Assembly (NCBI GenBank): GCA_031763025.1
Contig: JASSKH010000021.1
Span: forward strand, 10,810,776 to 10,874,775
Reading direction: 5' to 3'
Length of the DNA stretch: 64,000 bases
Source of the DNA: Macrocystis pyrifera
Taxonomy: Eukaryota; Sar; Phaeophyceae; Laminariales; Laminariaceae
In this document: in pieces, positions 495-62,329 of the stretch
How positions within the stretch are numbered: the stretch's first letter is position 1
Layout of the letters: each line of letters opens with the position of its first letter
The notes under the pieces: generated by a model
The model's input: only the letters and a program-made list of their open reading frames with translations
Databases searched by the model: none
What the model was told of the DNA's origin: nothing
Position numbers and translations under genes: made by a program

Positions 495-3400
495 ATGGAC
501 AGGGACACGTACACCACGGATATTCTCTTGAAGCAGGCTAACCTGCTCTTACTGGAACACCAAAGATACATAGCTCGCCTTAAATTCAAGAACGAGCGAA
601 AGTAAACCATCCTGGAGGCCTTCCGTGGTAAATTTCGATATTTTACGATGGCCAAGGCCAAAACGGAGCCCTCGACTAAATCCCACCCCTAACCCTAACC
701 TATACCCTATCCGTCACCCTAACCCGAACCTCAACCCGAACCTCAACCTAATTCAAGACCAACACCAGTACCAACACCAACCGTTTTGGAGCTTGAGATC
801 GACAGAGGGGGTCACTCGGCTCCACGAGTGTTGTTGTTGTTCTCACATCAACTCATTTTCAAAATATTGAATCAGTGGTCACGGGACAGGCTCCAAAAAT
901 TGAAGCGGAAATATTTTTTGGTGGCGCTTTTCTATAACAAACCCGAGCGGCCGTAAGGTCAGCCTCGACCAGCCAGAGCTCAACGATCTGCAGGGAAACT
1001 TTCGCCGGTCGCTCCTGGCTTGAGAGCGAGTCAGGATTTATGAGAGCAGTCCAGTCACCATACCACCTATCCACCACACAGCGTCAAAGCTGCGAGTCAT
1101 GGAAATGCCTCCACCTGCCGATAATATAAATGGGTACGTATGAACAATTACGGCGTGTCCTTTTCGCAGTCGATATTTCTTGATGGAAGTACTGTACAGT
1201 ACGACCGCGTGGATGTATGCATGATGCGTAATTTGGCTAAAGATTCGGTGCTGTGTCGTCGTGGTTGTAGGTAATCTCACAGAAATGAATGCGACCAGAC
1301 AAAAACTGACCCCGCCTCAACACACACCGATCCGAATCTAAGGCACCGGTAGCACATTATCTCCACCCTCCCATGAACGATGCGTAAATATGATCGATCC
1401 CGGTGTTGAATCGTTTTTTTTTTCGCAACGAATCCCGCAGTAAGGACCTATGGCCGGGTGAATCGGTGCATGCTGTATGGTCGATTCCGGTGTTGCATCT
1501 TTCGTTTGGCAACCAATCTCGCAGAAAGGGTTTCGACCACCAGGCGGAGGCATGCTACGGTACGGTTAACACCTTCTTCTGGGGATATACTGACTTTAGG
1601 AGCTCTGCACCTCACCCAAAAACTGATTTTGAGAAAAAGCTACACAAGTGCAACCCTAAGAACATCCTCAAAGCCTACGTAAAGTATATATATATCACGA
1701 TTACTATTGTAAAACACAAATGGCTTTCCAACGATATTGGATTTAGGAGCATAGTCAGTCACAAAATATGTGTATCACCGAATACGGTGCTGTGCCACTA
1801 TTTTCGCAATTAATTTATCGCAGAAAGGATTACGGGAGGGCTCGGTTGCTGTACCGCAAGGCGCTGCGGGCGATGGAGACACGAGGGCCAGACGTCCAGC
1901 TTCTGCTCTTCGCCTACGGTGTTTTCTGTCTCGTCACTGGGGTACGTATACTCCTATATACACATCATTTTTTGTTCTAGCGCAAACTGGCTAGTTCCAT
2001 CATGTAGATTATGTTTTGCAGCCGTAGAAGTCGTCCTGCTCTGTTTGTTCGCCTTCGGCGTAGTCCGTCTTTGTCCAGCGCGAAAGGGCTACCGTACCAC
2101 ACAGGGTGGTAAGATAGCACACCCCCTGGGACGGATTTTGCGAGCCGTCTTTCCGATACAAGGGAAGGCGCACATATACAACGAAGAAAGTGGTGGGCTT
2201 GGAAAGACCTCGTCAAGGCCCTTGAATTGGACGCATTGGTGGGCATTTTGATAGCATTTGCACTGTCCTCGTTTGTGGAGAAAAACTGTTTAGAAAAAAA
2301 TCGTCTGTGGAGGGGGTGTGTTGTCTTGCCACCGGGTGTGATACGGTAATTTCGTTGTTTAGATTATTTCAGCAACCGTATGTTGCCCTGCTTTGTATAC
2401 CTAAGCCTGAGAGCAGATAGGTGCTGCCCCCTAATGTAGTATTCGTCTCGTACCCTCGTACCCCAGCCTTCGCTCTTTGCACTTGTACTTTCCCGTAGTC
2501 GAATAGCTGAGGCAAGCTTAGCCTCCAATCGTCGAAAGGTCAACACAGGAAAGAGAGAATCACGAACATTGATACCCAGCACCCAACCGCGCTCTTGTTT
2601 TAGACCGGAAGACAAGCATCGCGAAGGTTATTCCCTGACGCCAAATCTCCCTCTTTCTGCAAATAAGAATATCGCGTAGATTTATTGCGTATATCTCCCC
2701 ATCGCCCTGGTTAGCACAGGAAGAAGACAACATCACGAAGGTTATTCCCGGACACCCAACCACTTCCCCTCTGTCCATCCGAATACCGCGAAGATTATTG
2801 ACCGTAAAGTCCAACCGCCCTGGTTGAAACAGGAATAAGACAACAACGCGAAGTTTATTCCCTGCCACCGAACCACCGGCCTCCTTAATGCAGGAGGGGA
2901 GAACATCAGCGAGATCATGCCTACCGCCTAATCACCCTCCTCGTCAATGCAGGAGGGGAGAGCATCACGAAGCATATTCTCTAACACCGAACCACCGTCC
3001 TCGTCGACGCCAGAAGAGAACAACACGAAGCTTATTGCCTAACAAAGGTTCTTGTCAAACACCCTCTCGTCAGTGCCGCATGAGAACACCACGAAGGTTG
3101 CTGCCTAGCCACCCGACCACCCTCCCCTTTTTTTGATACTACAGGACGAGAACATGACCAGCATTATTTCTACAGTGGAACGGGCTATCGCGGCTCCGAG
3201 TACCGCTAGTGGTGCTGACTCGGGCCGACGTTTCCGGCCGCCCGTGACGTTCGCGTCTAAACGAAGCCCGAAATCGTTCGCTCTTGCTGAGGTGCGTGCT
3301 AAGAGTGAAGAATACTGCATGCCAGTATCGTTCAGGCGGCATGTGTACACATTTCAACCAACGGTACGCTAGCTGAGAAATGTGTCCAACTACCGTAGAG

Positions 3401-6400
3401 GCGTGCACCATTTTTTGTTGCTTTGATTCTCTTCACATCGTCTTAAAGAGCTCTACACCTCGCCCAAAAAAACGTTTTAGAGGAAAGTGTAACTGCCATC
3501 CGATGAGCAGTTCTATCGCCTGAATATAGCATACAACCAAAAAATGCTGCAACACGAAAATTAAAAATCGACGATTACGGGTTAAAGAGACCTGTCAGTC
3601 AGAAACAGTTTCTGCCAAAAAGTGTTGCCTGTATTGTAGCACGCGTCGCGCGTAAGACTTGAAAAATGTTTGGCGTTTAGAGCAATACCATGGGAGGGGG
3701 GGTGGCTTATTATTTTCTGAGCTCTCATCTCACATTGAGGAGCTCAACATCTCGCCCGAAAATGCTGACTCCGAACCAGTTTGGTCGCGCAACTCGACCA
3801 ATCTTTCTACGTGCTATCGATCCTTATCGGTAGTTCAGAACCAAAAACAAATGTACTACAGAGTAAAAGTATCATACCAGCGTAATCGGTTCTCTAGTTG
3901 CTCATTTGAGGAGCTCCACCAGTCAGAAACGTTTGATCGAAAAAATGTCCAATCCGTGCTCTGGGATGCGTCTTTGGACGATGCACACGAACTGCAGCAC
4001 TGCAATCAACAGTCGTTCATTGACGCGGTACCCGTACCTGACGCAAATTGGAGGTGATTGACTCATGCCACATCAGGGGTAGCACTACTGTTTGGCTCAG
4101 CGTTTTCTGACCGGTTAAGATCCTCCAGCGAGAACCTATCAGTATGCCGGTGGGTGTAATTATTTTACTACTATAGTAGTATATTTGCTTTATTACTATT
4201 ACGGGGGACCATAGTAAGTAGGACCTATGGCGCACACAAAGACCTACCAGGTACATATTTACCTATTTTTACTGACAATATTTGGTCCTATTTACTATGG
4301 ACCCCCGTAATAGCGCTGTGCGAACAAAGGAACATCTTCGACGTCATGTTCGGGCTGACTTACTGATAGCATCGAGCTCCTCATGTGAGGAGCTCGGAAA
4401 TAAGGTACCACCCCTTACCACCCCTAAAAAGTGGCATTGCTCGTGAGGTACCACCCCTATGCGGCACCACCTCTACCGTGTCATCGCTCGATTGGGCTTA
4501 CGCCCTATGATAAGCTGAGACAACTACCCAAGATTACTGGAATACCATTCATGATTTACTATAGTATCCGCCGTATACCTACAGTGCCTATATATGTAGA
4601 CTACGCGCTTGTTAATCTTGGTTTTCATGTTTCGTCAGTTCTTGAGTGAGGCAAAGATCTTCTATAATATATTCAAGACAGGAGATTTAACCTAAATAGG
4701 AGCCATCGCTACCATGGCACGAGTCCAGTCAAGCGCCTGGAACCACAGGTGGCGAGGACCTCTCCCTTGCCCGGTATAATCGCAAAACAATCCTTGTTGA
4801 AACATTCAACAATATAGCACACCGTTGGGCGCACGGGATTGAGAGGCCGTCGATACCTTGTCGGGCTTGCTACATTGCATTGCTCGGTGCCTCCACACGG
4901 GTTGTCTTACGCCCACGTTGTACAGGGGGAGGGGGGGGGTCCCGGCCACCTGTGTAGTCTTCTCTTTCCAAGGCTAGAGGTCCTCCTCGTTTCGGGGCCT
5001 ATAGTAATATGGTGTTGGCATAATCATGCGATCTATTGTCAGCTGAGCTAGGGTGAACTTTGCTACAGTGGCGCCGCTGAGAGACTCATCAATGTGCTTT
5101 GGAATCTTTAGAAACGGGCACCGCTGCAGGCGATTCTTATATGCTGCCACCTTGCGCGGGCTCCTCTTTCTGTGCCTGGGTTTCTCCTATTTCGCTTGGC
5201 GCGTACCACATTCAACTATGCCTACGCTATAGAGTTGGCACAATCGCACGACGTGTTCTTTCAGCGACTCTAGGGGAAGCTCTGTTATTAAATACCTGGT
5301 AGGGCATCTGAGTGACAAGCCGATGGTTGCCAGAAACGAGAACCTTTGATGATAAGGGTGGCAGTTAGTTTTGCTTTATTATTCTGACCCCGTGCTATAG
5401 GGTAGCACCAAAAGCAACAAAAAAAACGGAGGCTCCTCGCTCGATGGCGCTCCAACCGCCGATTGATCCGTGCTACGATTCAGGTCGCACATTTTGGCTA
5501 AAACATGTTCCGAATGACGGGGTTCCTTAACCCAAAATCGTTCGGAATTTCATTCTTGTCCTGCAAAACTACACATATTTGTATACCTTCTGTAAGCCAC
5601 GGGATTATTCATCAACCGCTGCGCTTTGACCTTTCTCGATTTCAACGCAGCGGTTTACGTGACTTGGCAACGACTTACTAATAGTATAGAGCTCCTCAAT
5701 TGGGGAGCCTCAGAACAAAAGGATGCACCTCTACCGCAGCATGCGTCCACTGCGTCGTCAGAAAAACTTGCCAGGTATCAGGTACTCTGGGATAAGCTAA
5801 GCTCGATACACAACCGATCCCAAACTAAGCTAGGCTAAGTACACCTGGCGGATGACGCTTAAAATAAGCCGACGACGCATGCTAATATAAGCTAAGCCCG
5901 ATACACACCCGATCCCAAACTAGACTAGGCTAGGTACACCTGACGGATGACGCTCAAAACAAACGCCAGAGCCGACGATGCATGCTAATATGGTTCGGTA
6001 GCTCCTTGGTCAGTTGAAGAGCTGCCTGCGTCAGTCCAACCATTGTTTGAGGCATGCATGCTATACGGGAGGCGGTGCACCGTTTTCTGAGGCTCCTCGC
6101 GTAAGGCAAGGAACTCGAAACAACCTCACCCCCCAAAAAAATGCATTTTGACAAAAACGGTGTACAATATTAATAGTACGTACCCTCATTGGCCCGACGA
6201 ACAATCAACCTCCCGGATATACTAAAAGCACCAATGTGATTCCGACGATGTTCGGCAGCTCTGAGCGGAGGAGCCCGCTCTACCAGTCAGATATCCAGTA
6301 GTGGTTTGTAGTAGTTTGTAGTAGTTAGCAGTTCTAGCAGTTAGTAGAGGAAGCGATGCCCCTAATGCGGCACGCTCGCCTAGCGGAGGCACGCTACGAT

Positions 6401-9400
6401 AGGGGTTGCACCGTATTTTTTCCTACGGTCCCCGCTTGAGGAGTTCTACCTACCTCGTCCAATTGGAACGAAGAGTACCTCAGTTAACAACCTCGTGGCC
6501 TAGTCCAATTGGAACGAAGGGTAACTCAGTTAACAACCTCGAGGCCTAGGTAGCATCGAACACAAACGATACAGCATGCCTTATTGCCTTATTGGGTAGT
6601 TGAGGAGCTTCGTCAGTCCCAGTGGCATAGTTTGGACGGAAAGTGCTACCTCTGTCTTGGCAGGCGTCTGCGCTGCGTTGTTCTCCTGGGCTTGATCCGT
6701 GCGTGAAACCCTTTTTCCCAAGCCTGGGTACCTCCATGTTGAAGCGCACGCCATTCTTGAGACAATGCCCTCGCATTCGCGTAATCGCGTAACCTGTCCG
6801 CAACTGGTCGACGTACGTAGGGTGATGTTGGTGGCTCGCCGGCTGAGTACTGCCTCTTTTTTCCTAGACAACGCGCAGATACTGCGGTATACCGTTGTTG
6901 GCCACGTGCTAAAGTTTGCCGTGCGTGTCGCTCTGCTTGCGAAGGCTGGGTTCTTCCGTTTTGCCGCGTATCGCATCAACGATTCCGAGTCTTGGCACAA
7001 CTACGCGGCCTGCCGGCAGCTAGTCTACGGAGACTTCCACGGCGCCACTGAGCGCTACCTCGAGGCGATAGAGCGCGACCCCAAGAATGTCAAGGCGCAG
7101 GTAAGAGTAACCGAAACAAGGTACAGCCTGTAGAACAAGAGGGAGGTTTCGAGCATTTTGCTATGGTAGGAACAGCGCTTTGTCGCAAATAAAACGAAAA
7201 CCATGCTTAACAGAGCGCCTAAACTGGGGGGCATCCACATCGTTGGAATGCCATGCGTGCTCACCTCAATGCACACCTAGGGCATGGAATAGTTACAGAA
7301 ATCACGTTGCACTTTCCTTTTTCTCTAAATCCGTGTTTTTGTGTGACTTTCTGATCGTACTACCAGTACTAATAGTACTAATAGTACAGAGCTCTCCAAG
7401 TGAGTGACCGCAGCAAAAAAAAATGTAACCGACACCCACGGTAGCACGCCTGTCCCATCCGACTCAATGCCTCTGCTCCTACCCGCACCCACACCCACAC
7501 CTACACTCTGACCCCAACCCCCCCTACCGCCGCCCAACCCCACCGCCACCCCCACCCTCTCTCACCCTCCACCCTTCACCCTCCCCCCCACCCCCCCACC
7601 CCTCCGAGTCCGCAATTTCCGTCTGCCTGTAGTCCTACCCGCCTCCTCTCGTAGAATCAACCGTAACACTGCAGTACCAACACCTCAAACGCCTGCAAAT
7701 CGTAGAAAATAATCGCTCCCGTCACCCCTTCCTGACGAACGTCAATTCACTCAGCGTTTGGTCGGAAAAAGAAACTTGCTCACTGCGAGTAGTGAGTAGT
7801 CTCTGGGTTGTAAGCAAGGGAACCGTGATGTCCTGGCAGAAACGAAGGATCACGGACACTTTGGACCCATCAGACGAACAGAACAACAGCACTGAAAAAC
7901 TCGGACGTTTTCGAGAAGTACTGGCTCGACTTCTGGACGAAACATTAGAAAGAAAAACTAGTTGTACTGAAACTAGTGTAGGAAGCACCCTGTCTCGCGT
8001 CAGAATCGGAGCCTTGCCTAAAATTACTACGAAGGGTGATTGTTAATAAGAGGTGTCGAGTTTCTCCAGGGGTGTCCAGCGTATAACTGACTAGAGGGTG
8101 TTGCCGTGTTTGTTGGCGTTTTTGCTGCTGTCGCAGATGAACTACCAGATATTGCTGGACACTTTTCCGGAACACTCTCAGGGAAGCAGCACGTACGAGA
8201 GTCTCAGCGGTCACCACATGCTGCAGGTGCGTTGTTGGTACCGTAAACAGGTGGTTTCCCATCATAGGGTTTGTCGATATTCGTACTGCCAAACGTTCCC
8301 GACGAAGTATATACAGTATGTGTCTCCTCTTCCTTCCTCTTCTTCCTCCTCTTCTTCCCCCTGCCCTTTCCCCTCGCCTCCTCCCCTCCTCCCCTCTTCT
8401 CCTCGCTCCTACTACTCCCCCCCCCCCCCTCCCTCTCCTTCTTCTCGTCCTCTCCTCCTTCCCATCCTCCTTATGGCGTGTGCCCTGGTTTCTACACAGT
8501 AAAAGTGCCACTCCTTCCTCTAGCTAAAGTCCCTCCCGATATAACGTTTTGGCGAGCCTTGACGTTTCGTCTCAGGCCTAGCTACTAGCTACCCTCAATG
8601 CCGTATGATGCCGGCACCGGTATTTTGACAGGCGGAAAGCGAGAAGAGGCGGAAGGACCTATCTTCGGCGGACTTCCTGCGCCGCCCGGAAGTGACACAG
8701 GCCGCTCTCAAGATACAGGTCGGGATATCTGTGGTGTATGGGTAAAAACAAAAAACAAAAGCAAAAACAAATCAGCTGTGATGAGCTCGAGGGTTTGGTC
8801 GAACATCTTCTTATACATACATATATATATATATATACTTCGTACGTGTGACACATCGATCGCGCGTACTACGGGTTTTATAAGATATCATGAAGGATGA
8901 TTTTTTCCGTGTTGAAGCGTTGCATATACGGTAGGTAGCCCCTTTCGAGGGGACCTATTATTAGTAATAGTGAAGTCGGGATTGGAGGTCCCTTGTATTG
9001 GCACGAAGGCCCCTTATCAGAGCAGGTCCCGGCCTCTCGCGGTTACTACGTAGTGGGCAGAAACAGTGGGCAGAAATTGACGTCCCTACTATACCATTTT
9101 CGTTTTCTGTAGTATTTTATCGATGAAAAGCACACGTTAAGTCACAAACGTATCAGTCAGAGGGGAGCAAAGCCGCAGGGCTACGGAAATTACCCGCAAG
9201 CGACTAATAGCTAGTCGGTGACTTGTAGTCAGCCAACTCCCACCCATACTGAATCACGGAACCTACCTAGCCAACCAATAACTAGTCGGCGACTTATAGT
9301 CAGCCCCACTAATCATGGAACCTACCTAGCCAACCTAATAACTAGTGGGCGACTTGGAGTCAGCCTACTTACAGCCGTAGTCATAGAACCTGCCGAGCCA

Positions 9401-12400
9401 ACTAATATCTAGTCGGCGACTTATAGTCTGCCAACTCCCAGCCCTACTAACCATGGAACCTACCTAGCCAACTAATAACTAGTCGGCGACTTGTAGTCAG
9501 CCTACTCATGGCCCTACTGATCGTGGAGCCTACCTGGTCAGCTATTAATAATAAAATAGTGGGCGGCTTACAGTCACCCAACTCATAGCCCTACCAACCA
9601 TGGAACACCATGGAACCTACTAGGTCGACTATTAATAATAGTTGGCGACTTATAAGGAGCCAACTCATAGCCCCACCAACCATGGAACCTACCTAACCAA
9701 TGAGTAACTAGTGGGCGGCGTATAGTTAGCCAATCCAATTCCAAGCCCTACCAGTCATAGACCACCCAACCAACTAGTAACTAGTCGGTGACTTATAGTC
9801 GGCCAACCCACAGCCCTACTAATCATGGAACCTTTCTAGCCAAATAAATACTAGTAGGCGACTTAAAGTCAGCCAACTCACAGTCCTACTAATCATGGAA
9901 CCTGCTTAGGCAAATAATAACTAGTCGGCGAATTGCAGTCAGTCACCTCACAGCTCAGTTGTGTTCCCGTGATCACACATAGCATATAGCACATGTAGCC
10001 AAAAATGAAGTTGCATTGCTGGATACTTTGCTTGAAGATACATGTGAACTGTTGGCTCATTTTCTAACGAGTGCCTGTCTGATGCTGCCTGCTACTTGGC
10101 TGCACAAATAAAACAGTGTGCTTGGATGAGGAGCAAGCAAGACCGCATCCAAGCATTCGGATCATACCTCGACCCGACGGTGAGAGACACAGTATCCACA
10201 GATAGATAGATAGGTCCCCGACTCTCACTTCATGATCCAGATCCTTCAGGGCACAGAGATTCCTGATGTGCATAATCTAGCTCATGTTCTCATGTTGCCG
10301 GGTGAATCTGCACGATGTACAGCAGCAGCATAGGGTTAGGGTTAGACCTGTAATACACGGATCCTGATTCTGCACAACATCTCATATCGGCAGGTTAGGT
10401 TCCAGATGATCTATCTGCAGATCATGATCTATCTGATCTGTAGATGATATGTCCTATGTGTGCATGATTACACTCGTGCTGCGGTAGGGGGGGGGGAGTC
10501 GCTTCTGGGCCCTATGGTTCCGGGCGCTCAGAGCCGCTCGGCCCAGTCAGTCACTACGCTATTTCTTTGAAGTACAGTATTTCAGGAGTTTTTTTGTCTA
10601 GAGTAAGATTTTTGGTGTTGTTTTCGCGATATATACCGACCACCACGGGATTCCTTTGTTACTCCTCCGCGGCAGCAGCATTATTTGTATTTTTGGAAGG
10701 GGGTGTATGGAGTCACTCGCCCGAGTGGGGTAAACGCGGTATGAATACCGTAGTGAGAATATCGGCATCAAAGCCCCCCCCCCTTCAATCGTAGAGCAGC
10801 CGTATTCACATCAATGCATGCCCCGACAGCATTCCATCTTTGTTTCGCACGTCGAACAGAGGGCCATCTACTGCAGGTCATCGACCGGTAGATCCTGTTT
10901 CCCCCGGTTCGAAACCTCCCGCTGGAGATATCGTGCAAGCGCCGTATATCATACATGCCTTATTCCCAATCTATTTAACATTTAAAATGTGTAGGGCTTT
11001 TCCCAATCATCCCGTCCACACACAAAACGGGGACTACAATCCATGCATTTTTCCGCGCGGTCATTGCGCACTAAGAGCCGTGCCGTACACCACTATTCCC
11101 CCTGAATAGATTGACCGTTCGGTTTGAATGTTGATGTAGACATATTCCTTGTACCCTCTGGTATGGTTGAGGCCTCGCTCGGCCACTAATATCTAAGTCA
11201 TGCAGATGATATCAATCAAAATTACACCTACCTGTATCTGCTCCGGAAAATGTACAGTAGATCGCAATGAAATATATGGATGAATGGGATGTATTGTATC
11301 TGTCGGATGCGGGGGTTGGTTTCGCCAATGTACTCGTGTTCGGCCGCGGTCATCCGGGTCACGGATGTTCCCCCGAAGCCTGGCAGTTTTTTGTTACTAG
11401 TAGGTGAATGTCCCTTCATATTCCCTAAAAATATCAGGTATGGCAGTAATCGCAACCCAGGACATCCTATTGATGTTACAGTAGGAGGTGGGTGAAAGAC
11501 AGGCGTTCAAAGCGGTAGAGCTTACCACTTACCTGGTATTCAAGATTTGGTCTGATCGGCGTGGGGTCAGGTTTAGGCTTGCTCTGATTGGCTTAGGCAT
11601 AGGCGTAGTAGGGATAGAGTTAGGGTGAGTTGTATCCGTATCGTGCACAGTGTTAGTGTGTGTCGACCATTTTCTCGGACAAATTGCAAGCCATCCTCGT
11701 TCATAGCACCTCTTGGGACGTGAAAGTTCCCGCAAGATGCGGAAGTGTTGATGTTCTGTGTACTCTGCGTCCTTTTGGCTATGTCCCTAAAGGTGCTCAT
11801 AAGGTCTCTCGGTGGCTGCATTGGCCTAATACGTTCTGCGGACTTTGCGAGGTTGTTTTGCGCTCAAAAAGGTTGCATAGAACGCCTGGATCTCGCCTGC
11901 CTTCTACTGTACCAGGATGACGAGAGGGAGGCAGGGGCCTCGTCCACCGGTGTTCTCAGTTACGGCAGCCCTGACGAGTGATGACGCACACAGGACCCCG
12001 GCGTGGGTGCAACCCGCAATTTTTATGTGGCTCCTCAGCACCTCAGGAAGTCAGGAATATCTCACCCACAAACGTCTCTTGAGAAAACGTGTACGCGCTT
12101 AGCCCGACGAACGTATGAATGGGCAATCCCATGGCCTCAGTGTCTGCAACGACCACTTATATACTGAAAAAACAAACGATTCTGGTAATAACATATTGTA
12201 GTTCCTCAGTTGAGAAGCCATATCAGTCCCAGTGACATCGTTTGGTCCCAAACGCGCTGCTTACTACTATCGTAACAGGCGTCTGCTTTCAGCTGTATTC
12301 AACACGATGAGTGTCCCCCAACTATGTGATTTTGGTGTCGCGGCACGTTTCCCCCCTACCTAAACCGTACTAATAGACCTAGATAATGATGACTGGGTGT

Positions 12401-13622
12401 CTATGATGCACCCCGTGGAGATATAATATATATAACGAAAAGTGCGACATTCTAGCGCGGCCGTCCATCGGAGGCGTGTGTGCCTCAAAGGGGTAGCACT
12501 CAAAGTTTATGAGGCATTCATATTCACTTCAGAACCCCTAGTATCTAAAAACGGATTTAGAAAAAAGCTACGGGTGTATCCCGATGACCAATCCCTTAGC
12601 CCACACCTGGTACTAAGTATTGGTATATCACGAATAATAGTGGTATTGTATAACACTGATAATGCGGTATTCCGATTATATTGGGTTAGGGAACCCGGAC
12701 TGTCTGCTGTTTTTTCGCCGATAAAGTGATATCCCTATCGCGGCCAGCGTCATTGCAGAACATGCAGAACATGACCGTACCCCCCCCCCCCCCCGTGCGC
12801 TATGCATGATATGATCACATAACGTCGTGTGGGAATGTTCTCTTGCATTGCACCTAGGCGAGGCTATTGCGCGAAGTCCAAGAAGAGGCCCTAGTCCTCC
12901 AACGGGAAACGAGGACGACGAGTACGGGAAGCAAGCCGCGCTCACCCTCTTGGAAAAGTGAAGAATCCGAGCCCTTGCGAAGCGCAACGAGCACGAGAAT
13001 AACATCTCCGTCTACCGAGGATAGAAGCCGCCACGATCCATCAACAACAGCATCATCATCCCGTACGAGTGGCGGCAGAAGGATGCTACTGCCGGAGCCG
13101 TCCGAGTCGAACCCCGGTGCGGCGTGCGACTCGGCACTCGCTAAATCTTCGCTTTCCACTATTGCTGTTGGCACTCGTACTGGGCGGGAGATCAGTAGAG
13201 ACGAGGATGGAAACGGGTGTTTCTTTAACGCCCCCCTGAGCGGGGAAACCCGGGGTGATGACTCCCTCCACAGGAGAGATAGCCACGATAATACTCGTAT
13301 TGGTGTGGGGAGTGACAACGACACCCACACATACTCACCGCACAGCCAAACACGGGAGGACCTAGCAGAACACGCCAAAAATAGAAAAGTTGCGAAGCAA
13401 AATGGAACCGATAGTAATGCGGCCGGTTCGGCCGCAGGGGGGGTACTACCACCTTGGGCAGGCAGACAGAGCGAGGGGGGGGCAACGGAGGAGGAGGGGG
13501 GGGGGTCGGCGTATTCGGCTCCTGTTTTGCCGAGTGGTTGGGAAGCTATAGTAGCCGATGACGACGGCACTATTTTCTACCACCACATCGCCTCCGGGGT
13601 GACGCAGTGGGAAATACCGTAG
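495..13622 (+). CDS. TPR and WW domain protein, seven exons
   Basis: Role unknown; the parts suggest a protein-interaction scaffold. Exons: 495-601, 1824-1941, 3145-3291, 6945-7100, 8137-8226, 8632-8718, 12858-13622. All junctions are GT/AG and the phases agree (one phase 2, then all phase 0), giving 489 residues. Residues about 20-75 and 125-185 carry tetratricopeptide helices (KDYGRARLLYRKAL; SWHNYAAC; FHGATERYLEAIERDP). About 205-260 is charged and coiled-coil-like, with ALKIQ at the exon 6/7 junction recalling an IQ motif. About 260-455 is Ser/Thr/Gly-rich and probably disordered. The last 31 residues are a WW domain (LPSGWE, FYHH, second Trp in TQWEIP), a family that binds proline-rich peptides. 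Exon 1 is the weakest call: its ATG follows the minisatellite, and its last codon completes in frame inside a TPR helix. The TAG stop sits where the downstream copies read CAG, so the tail may once have been longer. Further exons in the 4.1-kb last intron cannot be excluded. Confidence 0.68.
680..765. repeat. Degenerate telomere-like CCCTAA/CCCGAACCT stretch
   Basis: Inside intron 1 of the TPR/WW gene. Two clean CCTAACCCTAACC units decay into CCCTAAC, CCCGAACCT and CAACCCGAACCT variants. This is too short and mixed to be a real telomere; it is an interstitial relic or a simple-sequence drift product. Around it, 602-680 and 765-1240 show nothing recognisable. Confidence 0.55.
1243..1545 (+). 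repeat. Three decayed copies of the exon 2 acceptor edge
   Basis: Copies at about 1243-1290, 1391-1456 and 1480-1545 resemble the real junction at 1781-1845. Shared landmarks in order are CGGTG(T/C)TG, then TTTCG(G)CAA, then CGCAG followed by AAAGG or TAAGG. AG is kept at each (near 1271, 1439 and 1523), so each is a potential decoy acceptor. The real exon starts after AG at 1823. Confidence 0.6.
2603..3112 (+). repeat. Minisatellite made of copies of the exon 3 acceptor edge
   Basis: About nine units of roughly 55-65 bp. Each carries a block like GAGAACATCACGAAGNTTATT, usually preceded by CAG or CAGGA. The real exon 3 starts at 3145 with AG, then GACGAGAACATGACCAGCAT, which is the same block. 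Several units keep the AG (GCACAG, GAAACAG and AATGCAG, each before GA). Bases 1942-2600 show nothing else recognisable. Confidence 0.65.
4199..4310. mobile_element. MITE with TTACGGGGG termini and TA target duplication, copy 1
   Basis: About 110 bp with near-perfect inverted ends, TTACGGGGGACCATAGTAA and its complement, flanked by TA on both sides. The middle is AT-rich with CCTATTTTTACT. It has no coding capacity. TA duplications and short inverted ends fit a Stowaway/Tc1-mariner-type non-autonomous element. Eight copies lie in the window. Confidence 0.85.
4748..4953. mobile_element. Small inverted-repeat element with CACAGGTGG ends, copy 1
   Basis: About 205 bp. The left end CACAGGTGGCGAGGACC and the right end GGTCCCGGCCACCTGTG are inverted repeats of roughly 40 bp, followed inward by CTCTCCCTTG and GTGGGCG-like blocks. 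A second copy at 15794-15957 shares both ends and the middle (GCACACC, GATTGAGAGG, TTACGCCCAC). No coding capacity. Confidence 0.6.
5795..5992 (+). repeat. Direct duplication of about 96 bp, two units
   Basis: Both units run AGCTAAGC(T/C)CGATACACA, CCGATCCCAAACTA, GGTACACCTG(G/A)CGGATGACGC and CGACGATGCATGCTAATAT-like. They lie in intron 3 of the TPR/WW gene. A smaller 48-bp duplication with CCAATTGGAACGAAG lies at 6452-6550. The rest of 5000-5680 and 6150-6940 is unremarkable. Confidence 0.75.
7435..7612. repeat. Cytosine-rich simple sequence in intron 4
   Basis: A run of CCCACAC, CCAACCCC and CACCCTC variants with no unit longer than a few bases. Its complement is strongly G-rich and could form quadruplexes. 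Beyond it, 7101-7435 and 7612-8136 show nothing I recognise apart from the acceptor at 8135-8136. Confidence 0.75.
8325..8475. repeat. Polypyrimidine (CCT/CTT) tract in intron 5
   Basis: Nearly pure C/T for about 150 bases on the + strand, including a run of ten C. It fills most of the 405-bp intron 5 of the TPR/WW gene. The apparent Leu/Pro/Ser-rich frames here are artefacts of composition. Confidence 0.8.
9205..9965 (+). repeat. Tandem array, period about 70-75 bp, about 11 copies
   Basis: The unit contains AATAACTAGTCGGCGACTTA, TAGTCAGCCAACTC, CAGCCCTACTAATCATGG and AACCTACCTAGCCAA. Divergence between units is 10-20 percent by eye, with small indels. It sits in the 4.1-kb intron 6 of the TPR/WW gene, with no open frame. 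Unlike the other intron arrays it does not resemble a neighbouring exon edge. Confidence 0.85.
10175..10470 (+). repeat. Dispersed GATCATGATCTAGATC-rich repeat, one copy
   Basis: About 300 bp. Landmarks are ATAATCTAGCTCATGTT, GCCGGGTG, ATCTGCA, TGATCTATCTG and AGATGAT. Related copies lie near 24920-25160, 29380-29710, 31500-31740 (opposite strand), 47310-47400, 49435-49700 (opposite strand), 51060-51550 and 53180-53230. No coding capacity and no clear ends, so the class is unknown. A short TAGGGTTAGGGTTAG piece lies inside at about 10331. The rest of 10470-12857 shows nothing further that I recognise. Confidence 0.7.
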
Positions 13623-48400: not shown

Positions 48401-51400
48401 TTGCACGTAATTACGCGGTGTCATATTGCCGTTACCCATGCTACGGCAAGGGGTGCGCGTGATTACGCGTAATTACGGGGTGTCATGTCGCTGTTACCCA
48501 CGCTACGGCACGGGATGTACGTGAAACGGTTGACTTGCTGAGGCTCCTCACTTGAGGACCCTTATATAAGTAAATCACTATGTATGGCCCAAAAACGCCT
48601 CCAACAAAAAAACGTACGCTAAACCTGATGAGCAATCGCCGTGTCTTATAGATGCCTATCGGAAAATGTCGCAAAAAAAAACAAACGATGTGAATGCAAA
48701 GGAAAATCCTCAGCTGAAAAGACACACCCGTCAGAAATGTTTCGGTCTAAGAGGTGCCACCGTACCCTTCTGCGGAGATGAGGTCGGCCTTGTTAAGGAG
48801 AACCACGTCGGCGCTCTCTAGCTGGCGCTTGGAGGACACCATCATGCCCCCCCCGCCCTGCCCATTTTCACCGAGCTGGTGAAGCAAGGCGTCCGTGTCT
48901 ACAACGGTCACGACCGAGTCTAACCTGTACAAGGAAAAAAGGGCCGGGAAAAATAACAAAAACAGGTCGAAGGGGAAGCGCAACAAGAGTGCGGGGCAAT
49001 GATCGGAAGAAATATAAAAATAAAAAAGCGATTCAACGGAAAACTTGACAACAAACGTGCCGGACAGCATTCGGAACAAATCACCACCTAAATAAATATT
49101 TTTGGCCTCCGACAATGTATTGTAAATGTTCCAGTCGGACATGGAATCGAATATCCTGTAGTACCTCAGTAGTATTTCTTGCACGCGTTTGTCGAACAGC
49201 CGGCGCTATAGTATTATCCATGATTCAAATTAAAAACGTCCGAAGGAAAAGAGTCAGAATAAATATGACAAAAGAAGAAAAAGCGGCGGAAGAACAAAAA
49301 AGAGGTGCAAGGGAAAGTAAGACACCTGAAATCGGGCCAATAATAAGCGGGGAAAAAAAATCGGGACAATACTAAGCGGGACAATTGAAGGCGGGACGAC
49401 AGAAAATATCAGAAAGCGCTGGAAGGAATAATGCACACCTCAGACAGATCATGATCTAGAGCGTATAGTTCCTCGATGTATTAACAGATCATCTAGTTCC
49501 TCACCCGCGGTGGTGAGAGTTAAGTGCTATACATACGGTACAGATCCAACACAGGAAACCTGTGCTGTATAGATCATGCAGCTTATCACACAGCTCTCAC
49601 CCGGCAATATGAACCACCGTAGTAGATCATACACGAGATTGGGAACATAATATCTACCTACCTTGAAAGGTACAGATCATGATATGCATGACCTGTATGA
49701 TCTGTCCAAGGTGCGGAACAATGACAACAGGAAAAGTGTCGCAAGAAAACGTTTCGCAACGGCAAGCGGAAAACTGAGGTGTAACGGCAAAGTAAAAGAT
49801 AGCGGCGGAGGAAAAGCGGAAGAAGGAAAAAGTGTCACGATGAAAAAAGACGGCGGATTTTTTTTTTTCTCAAGCGGTAGAAAGAAAGGAGCGAAAAGGG
49901 AGAACGGGACACTGAAATGAAGGCAACGAAAAGAGGCGGAAACGAAAAGCAAAACACAAGAAGGAAAAACGAAAGGAGGCAAGAGTGCGTACCTTGCCCT
50001 GGTGAGCTTTCCGAAAGTCTTGTCGAGGGCTCGGACGATAGACTCGGGGTCCGACACACCGCTAGTCTCGATCACCAGGTAGTCGTACCTATGATATCCA
50101 TTCGCAGCACCAGGTAGTAGCCAAATTAGCATTAATCGAGCACTACCAATGAGCCGTGAGCCGGTCCCCCCACTGGTCAAGTGGTTAGCTTCGAACACGA
50201 CTACTAATAGCGTGGGATTGAAGTGTTCGAATGTCAGTATCGAGTTTTTTGTTCTCAAACGGTACTAACTGCTGCAGCTGTCGAGAGCGCCTGTCGTAGC
50301 GGGGGCAGGCATAACTGTTAATAGACGCGAGTCGACGAGGGAAGAAAGCGACAACAAATGAACGGCGCGCATATACCGCCGTGGGGAGGGGAGAGAATAG
50401 CCTATTATGTGACCCCGGATCTGTTACCACTAGAAGGGAGAGAGAAAATAAGGGCGAAGATGATACATGGGATGGAAAAAAATAGAATATATTCCGAACA
50501 GAAAACTAAAGAACTACGCGAGTCGACGAGAGAAGAAAGTATTGGAATATTTTCGGGGGAAAAAAATATTGGGGGGGGGGGGGGGGAGTCTGTTATGTGA
50601 CCCCGGAGGGGTGGGCGCACGAGAAAGATGGGCGACGGCAATAGACGGGAGGAAAAATATAAAAAGAAAGAAAGAAAGAAAGAAAACTTGTTAACACAAA
50701 AGGCGACTGTTTTCTTGGGGGGAAAAGTGCCTTTTTTGTTGTTGTTGTCGGAATTCAGTCAACCATGGCGTACACCGACAGTGCGGATCAGGTCGTCACG
50801 TCTGTAGAACGAGCACCATTCTGTTCCACCTACGCGACCAACGAACAATGGCTGCGAGTAGCATGAAGAAGGCTGATTCTCAAACCAAGCGCGCAAAATA
50901 CAAGCAAGCGCCTAGTTCTCTCTACCACAACAAACAACTGACTATTCTCCGAACCGTTCCCGATCGCTGGTAACCGCGTCCACTCACTTTTTACGGCTTC
51001 CTTACCGAAGGCGCTTCACCCTGTCAACTATAAACAATCGTGTAACCCCACCGATTTTGAAACTTAGGTACAGCTCCGACAGATCAGATAGATCATCAGT
51101 TCCCACAGTTCATGATCTAGATCTTTCAGGGCAGACGAATTCCTAATATGTATGATCTAGCTCATGTTGCCGCGTGGGGGGTCGTATAATCTGCATGATG
51201 TATTACGGAGGACCATAGTAAATAGCACCGACGGAATACACAAAAACCTATATATTCCCCTATTCTTACAAACAAAATTTGGTCCCATTTACTATGGTCC
51301 CCAAATTAGGACATGTTTCCTGGGTTGGATCTGTACTGTACAGATCCCGCACGACATCTCATAGGATCCATCTGATCTATTACGGGGGTCCATAGTTAAC

Positions 51401-53084
51401 AGGACCTATGGTATACATAAAAACCTATATATTTAACTGTTTTTACTAACAAAATTTGGTCCCGTTAACTATGGACCCCCGTAATAGATGATCTAGGTGA
51501 TCTATCTGATCTATCTGTAGATAACCTGTCAGACGTGTGAACGTATGTCACAAACGGTTGCACTGTGCGCGCGCGTGGAGCCTATGTAGGCAGTTACGCT
51601 ACGAAAAATATGACCAACAAAAAAAAACAACAACAACGGCAACACGAAATACGAAACAAAAAAACAACTTCATAAAGTCAACCTTCTTAGAGCCCATCTT
51701 AACGGGGAACACTACATTTCGTTCAATCAGACGCAAATAAAATCAGAAGAAAAAAAAAAATCAAGTCAAATTGAAAGAACCGAAAGTCCTCGATAAGATG
51801 GGCCCTTAAATTAAATTAGAAAAAAAAAAAAAAGTCAAGTCAAATTGAAAGAGCCGAAAGTCCGCGTTAAGATGGGCCCTTAGTAGTGCACTCCCGTTTC
51901 AGGAACAACTCGCTTGGAGTATCACTTGGAATCAGAGTGTTTTGTCCCCAATTCGGGACCGAAGTACTGAAGGGGTTCACTATGAGGCAACGAAACGAAA
52001 CAACAAAAGACAAAAGCGGGAACCGAAGCCAAAAACGCCAAAACGAAAAAGCCAAAACCGAAAAAAAAAAAAAAAATCCCGCTCCCAGTCAACATGTCAA
52101 CAACGAACGGTCAGGCAGATTCACAGCTGTACCCACAATCAAACAGTCATCCGCGAACGTGTTACTACGAGGAGACCACGGCACACACTCGCCTACGAAG
52201 ATGCTTGGAGACCCCGGTTTGAACATTGAGTGACTGTCCCCACTATAAAAGTGGTATTAATAGTAGGGGTCAAAATAGGCCTTGACGCAGGCCGAGAAGA
52301 CCGCAGGCCGAGAAGACCGGTCTTCTCAAGAGAACATTTGTTCGCCTGTCGCTCGCGTGGTCCGACCTCCTATTAATCTATTAATACGCACATCTCCGAT
52401 ATTTTTCCCACGCCAGAGCCAAAAACAACAAAAATGGACTATTAATAAAACAAGCAAAGCAAGAAGAAAAAAAAAAACAGAATTGATCAGAGGCCCTTAA
52501 TCAATGTCCTTCTGCGACTTTCCACGTACCTGGCACCCACTACTTAGCATTGGACACCCATACACTTCCCTGCCTGCGTCTTCCGCATGGCCCGGCCTCC
52601 TAAACGGCTATCGGACCTACGGAAGACCTACAATAATCCTTGAGGTCATCAAAACAAACAAACCGATGAGCAAACAAACAACGCTAAACCTTCGAAACAG
52701 GGAAACTCCAAACCAAAAAAAAAATACGGAATCGAAATAAAATCGAACAAACAAGAAAAAAAAAACAACAACAACAACAACAACAACAACTACTACTACT
52801 ACAACAACTGCATAAAAATATAAAAGGACCCTTCTCGCCTGTCGTCGGCGTGATCCGGCCTCCTAAGCAGCTCCCCGACCTTATCTTCGAGTTCAGTACC
52901 GAGCGACCCCTGACAGCAAACGCACCCCCCCGCCAGCTTCTCCACGCCGTCGGTGAAACCGTCCCGTTCCAAGACGCCTCCGTCATGGTCTACAGACCCG
53001 TACTCGTTCACCACGGCCGCGATGCGAAGGTTGTGCTGCAAAAACCGCATTCAAGTGAAACCGTCAAGAAGCGTAAAAACGGGG

Positions 53085-53157
<73 letters not shown>

Positions 53158-53474
53158 GGGGAGGTTCGAAGGGTGAGGAACCATTAATAGATTATCTAGA
53201 TCATGATCTACAGTAGACGGTTGTCTGTCCAATGTGTATTGCGTATTACTATTTGCAAGCCCATGGGATCGTGTATCTATGGGGCTTAGCTTACAATTTT
53301 TCTCAAAAAAGAGTCGGTTGTTGGATCAAGCTATATGTAGAGCTGCTCAGGTGCACAGGTGAGGAGCCTCGGAAAGATGAGCACTTGCCACTTGCACCAC
53401 CCTCGTCACTGATTGGACGGCGCACACTCGCCAAGCCAATGGCTACACCTTTTTAGAGCGGAGTATATATTGCA

Positions 53475-53515
<41 letters not shown>

Positions 53516-56500
53516 CCTTCGCCAATGGTTGGTTGGTGGCTCACCACTGTGTCCAGATTGGTTGGTTGGCTGGTCAATGCAACCCTGACCACCGATTGGT
53601 TGTGTATATACGCGCGTGCGCCAATAGTTGGCGCGAGACGAAGCCTTTGTAGCAGTCTGTGGGAGATGTTACTTTTCGTTGTAGTGTCGTACACCCCCCA
53701 TAGGTAGCAATACGAGAGCTTACCGCTTAGTCGAGAAAAAGGGTTGGCACACACTACTCAGTCTGAGACAAAGGGACTACGACAGTAGTGCTGTTGGTGT
53801 TGGTGTTGGTGCTGCTGCTGATGCTGTTGCTTTCGTTGTTGTTGTTGCTGCTGCTGCTATTGCTGCTGTTGCTGTTGCTGTCGCTGTCGCTATTCTTGTT
53901 GCTGTTGCCGCTGTTGTTGCTGTTGCTACTGTTGTTCCTACTCTTGTTGTTGTCGTAGCTATGGCTAGGGTTATCCCTTTTGGCACTGCAGTGCCCAGAA
54001 ACATAGAAGTACTTACTTAGATCTCGATCTCTGAGCGTGCTCGGTTGGTGCATCCCTGGCCTCTCAGAGCTCCCACTTGGGAATCGCCTCCTTTTATTAC
54101 TTGCCGGACTCTTCCAGCGGGTCTTTGTTTTCTCCATTTCTCGTCGTACTTTCAGTCTTTCTTTCTTTTTTCTTCTTTCGTTTCGTGTGCGTGCGTGTAC
54201 TCCGAGCACGGTTGCGCGGGCGAACCCGGCACCGTCGCGGGTGTCAGTGGATGCTGGCGGGTAGAGGGGGGAGTTGCAAGGAGCGCGGTCGCCGCTTTCG
54301 TGCCTAGGCGTCGCGTGTGCCTCGAGATACGAGGGATGCATCAATAGGCTCTGTCTGGCCTCCATTTGTGATTTTTGATAGAGTACGTACGAGTACTTAA
54401 GATTCGTTCGGAATTATAAGATAATATTCAAGCGGTGCTTATTTTTGCGACCGGGCTGAAAGTCGCAAAAGGGAGGTACACCGAATGAACACCAACATTG
54501 TCGATCTTGCGTCGAGGTCCCCGGTGAGCACCGGGCTTCACGCGAGGCGGGCGACGGGGCTCACTGTGGAAGAGAGGGAGGAAAGCTTTACCCCGACTGA
54601 ATGGGTGGCGAGATGGTCGCGAGAGGGGCGGGCGGCGTACGAGGCTGAGAGAGAAGCTCTGCTGTAGGATTTGTTCTTCTTCTCTTTTTTTCATTTTGAC
54701 CGGTGTAAGTAAGGTGTTCCAATCAGGTAGTAAATTATTATACGAAATGGGACGGGGATATTTTTTCTTTCAGAATTTTTCGGTTTCATTTTCATTGTTT
54801 TTGCTGTGTTGCCGTGACGTGCTGTGCTGTATCTTTCGCACATACGAGTACAGGCACAGAGCATATCGAAAAAAGAAAATAAGTACCCTACCTGGGGTAT
54901 ATACGTATGTACGATACGACACGTGAGCGAGCGTAGCGGAAAAACCGCCCGCGACGCGAAGCGTATGTGGCGCCCGAGCTGTTTTCTCCCGAAACAAGCA
55001 TGGCGGCGGCGGGACTCTTGGCAATGTCGGCAATATCAAGTCGCCAGTTTGCAATCATGGACCTCTGTCCGCTTCGCACAATTATAATTTGATGTACTTT
55101 TCCTTCCTGAGCGAGCGTAGCGGGCGGCGTAGGCCGCCTGCGGAGCGAAGCGCCTTGTACATACATACTCGAATTCCAAGTAATTTGTCCCACGTCGTCC
55201 CAAAAACGGGAGTAGAGTCCTAAAGCCTAAGGAGGTTAAGGTTAATCATATTCGTCCCGTACACAGGTGGCCCTCAACCATTTTCTCAAACACCTGATAC
55301 CTAAGCGGTAAGCTACCCTCCCTTACAGAGGAACATCCTGCACGGTCGACACAACCCTCACCAACTCTCTCCTTCGGCCTGTTCTGTCCTTGAGGTAGGC
55401 CGAAGAAGTCCGCCAGGGCCTGCAACGGTCTAGCGACGGTCACACGAGCATCAAGCCTCGGGCTGGAATAGAGGGGAAACCTTGCGCGGTCTGGCTGGTG
55501 GCCTGCTCACTTTAAGGACCGCGTGGGGTGGTGGTGATGTTCTTTCTTCTTAACCCCGACGCCAAGGAGTTCATCCCTGGGGCGGGGCGGGTACATCACC
55601 ACAGCAGAGAGCGTTACATGGGCAGCCGCGGGAGTGGAGAGGCTGGCCATACCGTGGGTACGCATGCGCGACAGGAAGGATGGCAGCGTCGGCGTTAGCT
55701 GGGACGGCTGGACCCAGCCAACGGAAACCAAGGCATGTACTGGGCTACGAAACGGAGAGCCACATTCGTCATAAAGAAGAAAGAAAAAAAAAAGAAAAGG
55801 AAGGAAGCGAGGACAAGCCTCACGTCGGCGGGCGAAGAAAGCAGCGCGTGAGGCTCATAAGAGACACAAGGAGGCACTTGTGGCGGTAGTTACCTACAAT
55901 GTCCGCACCCTGGTTGTAAAGGGAAAAAAACGGGTACGGCCATGACGAGCGTGTACAGGCGAAGGGTCAGCAACTCGGCTGTAACGGCATTGGCCTCCAG
56001 GAAACTCGAGGTCCGGCAGCACGACGTTCCGTGCGGCACGGGTATCGCGTTTTTTCGTTCCGGTAAAAAAAAACAAAGGCAAGGGCTGTACGGAGTAGGT
56101 CTAGCTGTCAAGGAATCGTTACGCAGTAAGGTCTGCGTACACTCACCAGTTCATTGACGAACGGCTGATGTCTATGCGCTTTGAGCTGGCTGGTAAATGC
56201 GAGGCAGTTCATTTTGTCGTTGCGTATGCTCCAACTCATTGTACCAATGACGGCGAGCTGACACGTATTTTCTGGCAGAAGCTGGACGACTTGGTGTAAC
56301 AGATTCCGACGAGAGAGTGTCTGTTCGTTCTGATGAATGCCAACGCGCGAACTGGGCGGAGGATGAAAGGGTGTGGTGATGATGAAAGCAGAGTGCTTGG
56401 AGCATACGAAATGAAAGCGATATTCGTAACGATAATGGCAAACGACCTCTGCCGTTTCGCCACCAATTGCAAAGTTAGCCCTCACCAACACGTTTTTCAG

Positions 56501-59500
56501 CAACCGCAATGGTGGAATATCGCATACACACAGCGGCACCAGCCCGAATAACCGTAAGCGGATCGACTACATCCTAACCCGCCTACCCCATCGACCTAGA
56601 GGACATGATGTTGAAGTCGTCCCTACAGCCTCCGCCCCCAGCTAAGGCCGGTGCAAACCGCCACATTTTGTGTATCAAATCTGACTCAGTGGTGGTCACT
56701 TTGCACCCAACAGAAAAAACACGAAAATCCCCAAAACACCGAGAGTTCGACAGGCAGTTTTATTTTCGTTTTTTATGCCTGATGACAAGGGTCGCTTCCA
56801 CTCTCAACTATTACGGGGGTCCATTGTAAATATCACCAAATCTTGTTAGTAAAAATAGGTAAATATAGAGGTTTTGGTGTGTATCATAGGTCCTATTTAC
56901 TATGGTCCCTCGTAATAGCTTGTCCAGCCCCGTAAGACGTCTGGCATGGTGAAGTTTTTCGCTGCGGCTACCATTGATGCGGTCGAAAAAGAGGTACCAC
57001 CCCCTCCACGTCGCCAGCGCAGGCATTGACGGGGTGAGTCTGCCGAAACCTTGGCCGCATTCATATTGGCATGGACAGCGAGGGAGGATGCACGACAAAT
57101 TCTTGCGTGCCCACCCGCTGGATAGAAGCGCGTGGGAGACACTGAGATCTGCGTTTGCGAACCTGCAGGACGTGGTTGCCGCAGGACTGCATGCGTATTT
57201 TGAAGAGTACCCAGCCGAAACAAAACGACTCCTATTACGGGGGACCATAGTAAATAGGACCAAATATTGTTATTAATAGCAAAAATAGGTAAAAATATAT
57301 ACCGGTAGGTTTTTATGTGTACCATAGGTCCTATTAACTATGGACCCCCGCAATAGCGAATAACGACCACAGGGGAATCTACAGTACAAGCACCTGAAGA
57401 GTAAGGTGGAATTCGAAGGGACTAAAGCGAGGAGCGAGCAGCGCATTAGGGACGGGGGTGGCACGCTGTTGCGGGGCAGGGCGCGAATTCGTGAACGGCG
57501 GTCGGGGTTCTACCGCAAACTCTTGAACACGGAATCACTGAAAGTCGATCCCACGCACGACCATCGACCTCTTGCCACCGCGACCGCTTAAACCGTCGCT
57601 CGGAGATGAACCATCCATGGACGAGATGACGGAAGCACTTGAGGGCATGTCAAATTGGAAAGCTGTTGGCCCAGATGGTCTCCCGACCGAACTCCTAAAA
57701 AACGACCACCCCGCATTCGCCCAGTGAGTGGTTTTCACAACATCCTTGTCAACGTTTGGGTAACAGGAGAAGCCCCCCAGCAATGGCAAGATGCGATCAC
57801 TAAGCCCTTCACAAAAAAAAGGGCCGAACTGATTGCAACAACCACAGAGATTTCGCTGGTTGCCCACGCAGACAACGCGTTGTTGAAAATTGTCGCGTCC
57901 CGCCTTAGCACTACTGCGAGACCGAGGGATCACTCTCGGAGGAACAGTGCGGCTTCCGCCCCGCACGATCAGCGATTGATCTGTTGTTCGTCGTGCGCCG
58001 GTTGCAAGAGCTCGGACGACAGAGAAAAATCCCCCTCTACGTGTGCTTCATCTATCTGCAGAAAGCGTACGACTCTGTCGACCGAGAGCTGCTGTGGGAA
58101 GTATTCACACGCTCTGATACCAGCCAAGATGCTTACAAGTATCAGCAATTTCCACGAAGGCATGCGTGCGCGCTCGCGTGCGTACGGATGATGGCGAGCA
58201 CTCGGGATGGTTTAATGTCACGCAGGGGCTGCGGCAAGGCTGCGTCCTATCACCGTTACAGTTCTACGTGTTCTTCATTGCTGCGTTACACGTCCTACTG
58301 GTACGCTTCAGCAAAGGCGAAGCCATCCTCACAGATTTGGTTCAACGTCGAACAGAGGAGCAGGAGCCGTAGGCATGCGTGCGAAGGGCTGTATGGGGCA
58401 TGTTGTACACCAATGACGCAGGAATTGTCTCGAAGTCGGCTGAAGGGCTCGTCGAAATGAAGTCATCGTGACTGTCTTCGAAGCAGCAGGCCTCACGGTA
58501 TCGGAAAAGAAGCCGGGGACAACGCTTCTACGAATACCAGACCAGACTACCCTCGCCCCACCGCTTGTCATTGAAGCGGCAGGCCAGAGGTATAAACAGA
58601 CGACCTAGATCTTACACCTAGGCGTCATTATCCACGAAAACGCTGTCCTCTCGCTCGAAATCGACCGACGGATCCGTCTCATGCGGGCATGCCTCAAACG
58701 GTTCGGCCCGGAGTTGTATGATAGGACGACCGCCCCCCCTAGCCTGAAAGTCCGAATGCTGAAGGCCGAGGTGATTGAGACTCAGCTGTACGGGTGTGTG
58801 ACGTGGACCCTCAGAGCGGAACACTTTGCCAAGCTTCGAACGGCTCACCCCCAACTCCTCTTGCGAATCATTGGCTTCCAGCGCCGACTTTATACTGACC
58901 CCGCCATCCTCTCGTACGCGAAGGCCCTCAAGATGACACGTTGCAAGAGCATCGAAACGACCATCCGTAAACGGCGGCTTTTTTTTTTGCGGGGGACGTG
59001 GCACGGCAAAGCAAGGATCGATTAGCCAGTCGGGTAATGTTCGGGACGATGGCTGGTGGGGTGAACCCGAGACCTGACGGATACTTCAAGGCTTGGCACG
59101 GATGCATAGTCGAAGACCTTATGGGGTTCCGATCCACCAGAGGATCAACGGAACTTGCCCCCTTGGTGTTCGGAGTTGAGACCGCGCTGTGGTCCACTGC
59201 AGCAAAAAGGCGAGGAAGTGGTACCGGGGGGACCTAGAAGCAGCCGAACGGTTCATGGTGAGGTGGCACGAGGATGACGCACAGCTGAGAAGGCAGCGCC
59301 GCGCCTCCGCCTTGAGTGGTGCCCAAGGGAATGGGGGGAGGGGGGGCAACAGGAGGAATGGAAGTAAATCCGACCAAGGGAATGGGGGCAGGGAGGGAAA
59401 CAGGAGGAATATGAGGGAAACCTCGGTGGACGAGCGGGAAGGAGATGGCAGACAGGGTGAAAAGGGCCAACTAGTAAGTAGAACGTGTCTATGCTACTCG

Positions 59501-62329: not shown

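Follow-up and report, generated by a model that had tools for sequence, protein, structure and literature searches.

The genes and their exons

The window, the 64,000-nucleotide stretch of Macrocystis pyrifera DNA analysed here, carries a TPR/WW gene, a CobW gene and a gene that retains the name KNH-like from an earlier note on the same DNA. The exons and the repeated elements are listed in Table 1. By tblastn, all TPR/WW exons except exon 7 match proteins of at least two of three brown-algal relatives, Ectocarpus fasciculatus, Hapterophycus and Discosporangium, and the protein contains a WW domain (E 8.2e-9). An older model of this gene included an exon 1 at 1099-1133 and a start of exon 4 at 6879. 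Homology to the relatives gave no backing to either, so that exon 1 was dropped, which is why the numbering starts at 2, and the exon 4 start was set at 6945. The start of exon 2 is uncertain: the similarity of one relative extends to 1771, so that this exon may begin before 1824. The translation of 1757-1823 resembles the Discosporangium protein; with an earlier start, the units of the adjacent array may be more exonic.

The joined exons of the four-exon CobW model used here match the cobW domain at E 2.5e-39, and exons 6 and 8 of the earlier note have no counterpart in this model. CobW exon 2 (52839, minus strand) seems to use a GC donor, and GC is retained in both copies of this edge. The joined KNH-like model has no Pfam match and has a homologue in Laminaria digitata (E 5.9e-45, 70% identity). 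The fourth gene of the sample was taken from a Cpn60_TCP1 family search, in which the greater part of its exons was listed, before its introns were seen; we take it to be CCT5. Its joined exons form one open protein once one exon end is moved by a base.

Table 1. Exons, copies of coding and splice edges, arrays and MITE-like elements, in window coordinates
Feature	Position	Strand	Remarks
TPR/WW exon 2	1824 (or ~1757)-1941	+	tblastn to three relatives
TPR/WW exon 3	3145-3291	+	tblastn to three relatives; 29 nt inside direct repeat pair
TPR/WW exon 4	6945-7100	+	tblastn to three relatives
TPR/WW exon 5	8137-8226	+	tblastn to three relatives
TPR/WW exon 6	8632-8718	+	tblastn to two of three relatives
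TPR/WW exon 7	10117-10179	+	fits protein alignment
TPR/WW exon 8	12858-13622	+	tblastn to two of three relatives, E 0.091 in one
Copies (two, decayed) of TPR/WW exon 2 acceptor edge	1389-1467, 1470-1535	+	identity 0.71, 0.78; AG kept in both
Weak copy of TPR/WW exon 2 donor edge	2029-2103	+	51/72; exon-only p 0.010; z 1.8
Eight-unit array, TPR/WW intron 2	2541-3130	+	units mostly ~60-70 bp; next unit position is exon 3 acceptor
Copy of TPR/WW exon 4 acceptor edge	6676-6751	+	29 exon + 47 intron nt; 54/76
Weaker copy of TPR/WW exon 4 donor edge	7385-7453	+	GT lost; 46/62; z 3.4; exon-only p 0.98
11-unit array, TPR/WW intron 6	9214-9985	+	~70 bp units; ends ~130 nt before exon 7
TPR/WW coding end (WW codons) with stop codon and adjoining downstream sequence	13551-13689	+	source of ladder
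Decayed coding-end copy 1	13786-13914	+	
Decayed coding-end copy 2	13946-14062	+	
Decayed coding-end copy 3	14104-14232	+	
Decayed coding-end copy 4	14363-14488	+	
KNH-like exon	25765-26061	+	taken as exon 3 of the earlier note
KNH-like exon	27259-27309	+	uncertain
KNH-like exon	27864-27994	+	
KNH-like exon	28410-28525	+	
Copies (two, decayed) of KNH-like acceptor edge	25317-25421, 25486-25574	+	AG kept in both
Possible copy of KNH-like donor edge	27350-27580	+	149/207
CobW exon 1	62380-62177	-	four-exon model
CobW exon 2	53035-52839	-	four-exon model; GC donor
CobW exon 3	50088-49993	-	four-exon model
CobW exon 4	48924-48766	-	four-exon model
Copies (two, decayed) of CobW exon 2 donor edge	52618-52562, 52372-52328	-	
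Borderline copies, CobW exon 1 donor region	53407-53660	-	>8.5 kb from exon 1
MITE-like copies	4195-4315, 14218-14330, 51380-51487, 56820-56920, 57235-57360		approximate, by eye

Searches and scans

The HMMs were trained on intron copies alone, with no edge sequence, and were then run on both strands of 346 kb, that is, the window, contig C1 and 90 kb of contig C2 of the same assembly (537,376,219 bases in 223 contigs), which amounts to ~0.06% of the genome. The seed copies were chosen by eye once the likeness had been noticed, so that their choice was not blind. Edges were evaluated by strict scoring first and by softer scoring afterwards. The z scan on the corrected models of the four genes covered 41 of 47 edges; the other six, including the TPR/WW coding end, lay in masked simple repeats or in regions too short for the scan. 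The first z scan and the rank test (32 edges each), the exon-only test (47 edges) and the count of inverted pairs (48 edges) employed the older TPR/WW model and are superseded for that gene. With the same older model, strict scoring of 20 TPR/WW and CobW edges gave p <=0.01 at three, namely the TPR/WW exon 2 acceptor and the donors of CobW exons 1 and 2.

Copies of splice edges in the three genes

The introns of all three genes had been described in the earlier note as holding decayed copies of the neighboring splice junctions, at the edges of TPR/WW exons 2, 3 and 7, on both sides of KNH-like exon 3 and at CobW exons 1, 2, 6 and 8. For part of these edges, the description holds. The HMM built from the KNH-like intron copies ranked the true acceptor edge first after the training copies (E 1.6e-13; next match, E 1.6), and the same edge reached z 14.8 in the 41-edge scan. 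The donor of CobW exon 2 was likewise ranked first after the training copies, at E 0.0017 (next match, E 16), and reached z 7.0 in the 41-edge scan. For the TPR/WW exon 2 acceptor, the HMM of intron 1 was trained on the units 1239-1318, 1393-1478 and 1480-1560, and its first non-training match was 1779-1835 (E 2e-5; next, E 1.7). With an exon 2 start at 1824, just ~12 nt of this match are exonic; in the exon-only test, the exonic part of the acceptor was not significant (p 0.26).

Other edges are represented less clearly. The copy of the KNH-like donor edge is suggestive, with z 4.2 in the first scan of 32 edges vs 2.2 in the 41-edge scan, and that of the TPR/WW exon 2 donor is likewise suggestive. 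The TPR/WW intron 2 array consists of seven training units (2541-3074) and an eighth (3080-3130) that was found by the HMM at E 7e-6 and stops 14 nt short of exon 3. The exon 3 acceptor lies approximately where the next unit is due, in phase with the array, but the evidence of a copy is weak, given that the edge scored 1.1 bits (rank 51 of 87) in the HMM search and z 2.6 in the 41-edge scan. For exon 7, the evidence is mixed and the claimed copies are mostly unsupported: the HMM of the intron 6 array gave no match at the exon 7 edge, and the acceptor yielded p 0.020 and rank p 0.032 with the older model vs z 1.2 in the 41-edge scan. The acceptor of TPR/WW exon 4, which is not among the edges of the earlier note, has a copy at p 0.003 and z 4.5 (41-edge scan).

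For the CobW exon 1 donor, the copies are borderline. A single-sequence model with ~5 nt of exon gave E 0.0067, and a repeat pair that is 68% identical and takes in 28 nt of exon gave E 0.007. CobW intron 1 contains, by eye, LINE-like open frames at 57535-59025, and an insertion of this kind may have come to lie between exon 1 and old copies at about 53.4-53.7 kb. At the edges of CobW exons 3 and 4, z was -0.0, 1.4 and 0.8 in the 41-edge scan; the exon 3 donor had a rank p of 0.016 in the 32-edge test, through intron sequence only.

A gene chosen in advance and a ladder without a splice junction

In CCT5, the strongest copy is that of the exon 7 donor (38/43 identical), followed in gene order by those of the donors of exon 9 (43/49) and exon 10 (57/71). 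All three comprise exon and intron sequence and keep GT. On exon sequence alone, the exon 9 and exon 10 donors were not significant (p 0.16 and 0.43), so that these copies depend on junction-spanning queries; for exon 10, z was 1.6 in one scan vs 3.6 in the 41-edge scan. The duplicate at exon 9 clearly lies head to tail with its source, and a short AGGG match, identified by eye, is common to both ends of the unit. Among the 6 edges of three further CCT introns, none was touched by a repeat pair.

A further ladder, absent from the earlier note, originates where the TPR/WW coding sequence ends. Four decayed copies of the terminal WW codons, the stop codon and the downstream flank follow the gene, with E 2e-15 to 2e-6 as repeat pairs and identities of 0.69-0.74. 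Because this ladder lies at a stop codon, without a splice site, it argues strongly that the survival of copies is governed by the boundary of constrained with free sequence rather than by the junction.

The 18 splice-edge copies, a few of them weak, each include 11-58 nt of exon and 11-58 nt of intron, within an alignment span of 60 nt on each side of the edge (40 for CCT5 exon 9). They start 78-686 bp from the edge, with the exception of CobW exon 1. The copies can be seen to adjoin head to tail at CCT5 exon 9 and in the array of TPR/WW intron 2. At the other edges, the spacing exceeds the length of the match, in several cases by far (~170-390 nt vs ~40-60 nt). No plain tandem unit is visible in such cases, which would require subsequent indels or short template switches.

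Direction of copying and decoy sites

The coding edges involved are conserved. KDY at the start of TPR/WW exon 2, as well as a serine and VERA at the start of exon 3, are invariant in four aligned proteins, exon 4 begins within the conserved AGFFRFAA, and the KNH-like edge reads CGEWVANLCV in Laminaria as well. The coding edges of TPR/WW exons 2-4 and of the KNH-like exon being conserved in brown algae, the edges are ancestral and the intron copies derived. For CobW, the domain match makes copying from exon to intron the probable direction.

That many copies keep AG or GT, as previously noted, is correct to the extent that the splice dinucleotide is retained in 12 of 18 splice-edge copies, with GC donors counted as kept. 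However, ~10.4 of 18 would be expected from the squared copy identities, summed by hand, so that the retention gives no indication of selection for decoys; moreover, the array units are of common ancestry, and the 18 copies are therefore not independent.

Edge copies compared with noncoding DNA and exon interiors

The 41-edge scan bears out the reported placement of acceptor copies upstream and donor copies downstream: z exceeded 3 at 8 of 41 edges on the predicted side vs 1 of 41 on the opposite side, and at ~1 of 41 in the reverse complement. The same threshold was passed by 246 of 1766 noncoding tests and by 10 of 262 exon-interior tests, so that similarity at edges is indeed higher than for exon segments, as the earlier note presupposed. 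An excess over exon interiors is expected if selection removes duplications within exons. A gene-by-gene draw of noncoding tests predicts 5.7+-2.2 edges at z>3 vs the 8 seen (P 0.20), and the corresponding figures are 10 v 6.6 at z>2.5 (P 0.11) and 6 v 4.4 at z>4 (P 0.28). The observed count is above the noncoding expectation at all three thresholds, and a real excess of copies at edges would be small. Repeat pairs cross 5 of 47 edges (6 with the alternative start of exon 2), the TPR/WW coding end among them. The noncoding rate would give 5.4-7.0 crossings and the interior rate 1.1. With the older TPR/WW model, none of 48 edges is crossed by an inverted pair. Thus, in copy rate, the edges resemble noncoding DNA and not exon interiors.

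The scans on the older model gave the following counts. In the first z scan, z exceeded 3 at 4 of 32 edges on the predicted side and at 1 of 32 on the other side. In the rank test, p<0.05 was attained by 10 of 32 edges vs 0 of 10 exon interiors. In the exon-only test, p<0.01 was found at 4 of 47 edges on the predicted side and 1 on the other side, and for 2 and 1 of 36 interior segments, which indicates weak enrichment from exon sequence alone. The sample comprises four genes, which cannot yield a genome-wide rate of edge copies.

Local direct copies are common around these genes. Copies at z>3 within 500 bp upstream were found for 12.5% of 255 window tiles in direct vs 2.7% in inverted orientation. 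The excess is small in C2 (8.2% vs 5.8% of 380 tiles) and reaches 24.9% vs 3.7% of 858 tiles in C1, which is rich in long tandem arrays. Such arrays, at ~C1:139000-180000, hold open frames. A coding predictor trained on C1 and C2 was set aside because tandem repeats dominate it. In Ectocarpus, according to the available part of PMC12477816, introns are long (autosomal median, 524 bp), and the distribution of tandem repeats is relatively even.

Origin of the edge copies

Given that edges are copied at about the rate of other noncoding DNA of the same genes, the copies are best attributed to ordinary local direct duplication that was tolerated wherever an intact copy of the coding sequence persisted, and to subsequent decay, rather than to a special process linked to splicing; we assign this reading a probability of about 0.8. 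Under this scenario, tandem duplication or slippage would produce a unit that straddles a border between coding and noncoding sequence. As one intact coding copy would remain next to one intact splice site, selection would tolerate the duplication, and the redundant intron-side copy would decay, whereas units located entirely within exons would mostly be purged. The outcome would be decayed edge copies on the upstream side of acceptors and on the downstream side of both donors and the stop codon. The mutational step could be of the kind suggested by the AGGG shared by both ends of the duplicated unit at CCT5 exon 9, and the copies are presumably neutral. The core of the earlier proposal, serial duplication across the junction, agrees with the presence of both exon and intron sequence in the units, with their location on the expected side and with the conserved coding edges.

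A process specific to edges is not supported. If exon edges were true hot spots, duplicated preferentially by a process tied to splicing or transcription, such as RNA-DNA hybrids or pausing at junctions, an excess of copies at edges would be the natural outcome, and the ~1.4-fold excess over the noncoding expectation at z>3, together with copies at 3 of 17 CCT5 edges vs 10.1%, goes in this direction. Yet the excess is not significant (P 0.11-0.28), repeat pairs show none, and a four-copy ladder lies at a stop-codon border that lacks a junction, so we regard hot spots as decidedly unlikely. The broader notion that junction-straddling serial duplication is a main builder of brown-algal introns and leaves fossils at ~1/5 of splice edges, with edges mildly favored through a transcription- or splicing-coupled process, is unlikely as well. 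Duplication of whole exons or domains, with the spare exons decayed to fragments, is brought to mind by the likeness, by eye, of the KNH-like exons at 25765 and 27864 and by the resemblance of the TPR/WW post-stop copies to WW ends. It appears improbable because the splice-edge repeat pairs enter the exon by 19-43 nt only and include the adjoining intron, no reported pair spans both edges of an exon (exons of 131-297 nt), and the copies are one-sided; a weaker CobW alignment runs 82 nt into the exon.

Retention of AG, GT or GC in two thirds of the splice-edge copies could be taken to mean that these are functional decoys or alternative splice sites under selection; with identity alone accounting for nearly as many, this is very improbable. 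The least probable explanation is that the matches represent a dispersed repeat or chance. Chance can indeed give single alignments as strong as these copies, and in one scan an unrelated site in the window equals the best TPR/WW exon 2 copy on single-pair score. However, the HMMs of the KNH-like, CobW exon 2 and TPR/WW intron 1 copies returned no comparable match outside their loci in the 346 kb, a check against dispersed repeats whose scope is the small searched fraction of the genome.

Relationship to known duplications

As a single event, local duplication across a junction is not without precedent, contrary to the earlier statement that no named mechanism gives this pattern. The available part of PMC4974935 describes, in potato RdRp, a tandem genomic duplication that crosses an intron-exon boundary. 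As in such a boundary-crossing tandem duplication, the kelp units hold both sides of the junction, are direct and lie near their source. The differences, so far as that part of the report goes, are that the potato duplication gave rise to a new intron, whereas in the kelp none is seen and the old intron became longer, and that the kelp copies are often serial and decayed. The novel introns of Drosophila that arose by tandem duplication of proto-splice sites (PMC2891723, in part) share with the kelp copies the alteration of exon-intron structure by local tandem duplication; there, exonic duplications were intronized, whereas the kelp units straddle existing junctions. Mutually exclusive exons arise from duplications of an exon with adjacent intron (PMC6071210, in part), so that the duplicated unit also has exon and intron sequence, but exons are duplicated in that case and edges in the kelp. 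Among the matches listed in our literature search, no title or abstract opening dealt with decayed exon-edge ladders in introns, which does not prove their absence from the literature. The prevalence of the copies, their serial decayed form and the lengthening of introns without a new intron may be new.

If a rate of ~1/5 of edges held genome-wide, local duplication would be a measurable source of long brown-algal introns, and gene finders and splice-site models would commonly face similar decoy edges in such genomes. Since coding conservation fixes the source of edge copies, these could serve as datable markers of intron growth.

Other repeated elements

The arrays of ~60-70 bp units in TPR/WW introns 2 and 6 are presumably comparable to intronic minisatellites, with the difference that the intron 2 array reaches the acceptor and the intron 6 array does not. 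No dispersed near-identical intron copies, as expected of introner-like elements, were found in the 346 kb (~0.06% of the genome). Open frames resembling a LINE reverse transcriptase are seen by eye at 33511-34568. A short MITE-like element, also recognized by eye, is present in several copies, and its ends read like tattacgggggtccatag / ctatggacccccgtaata.
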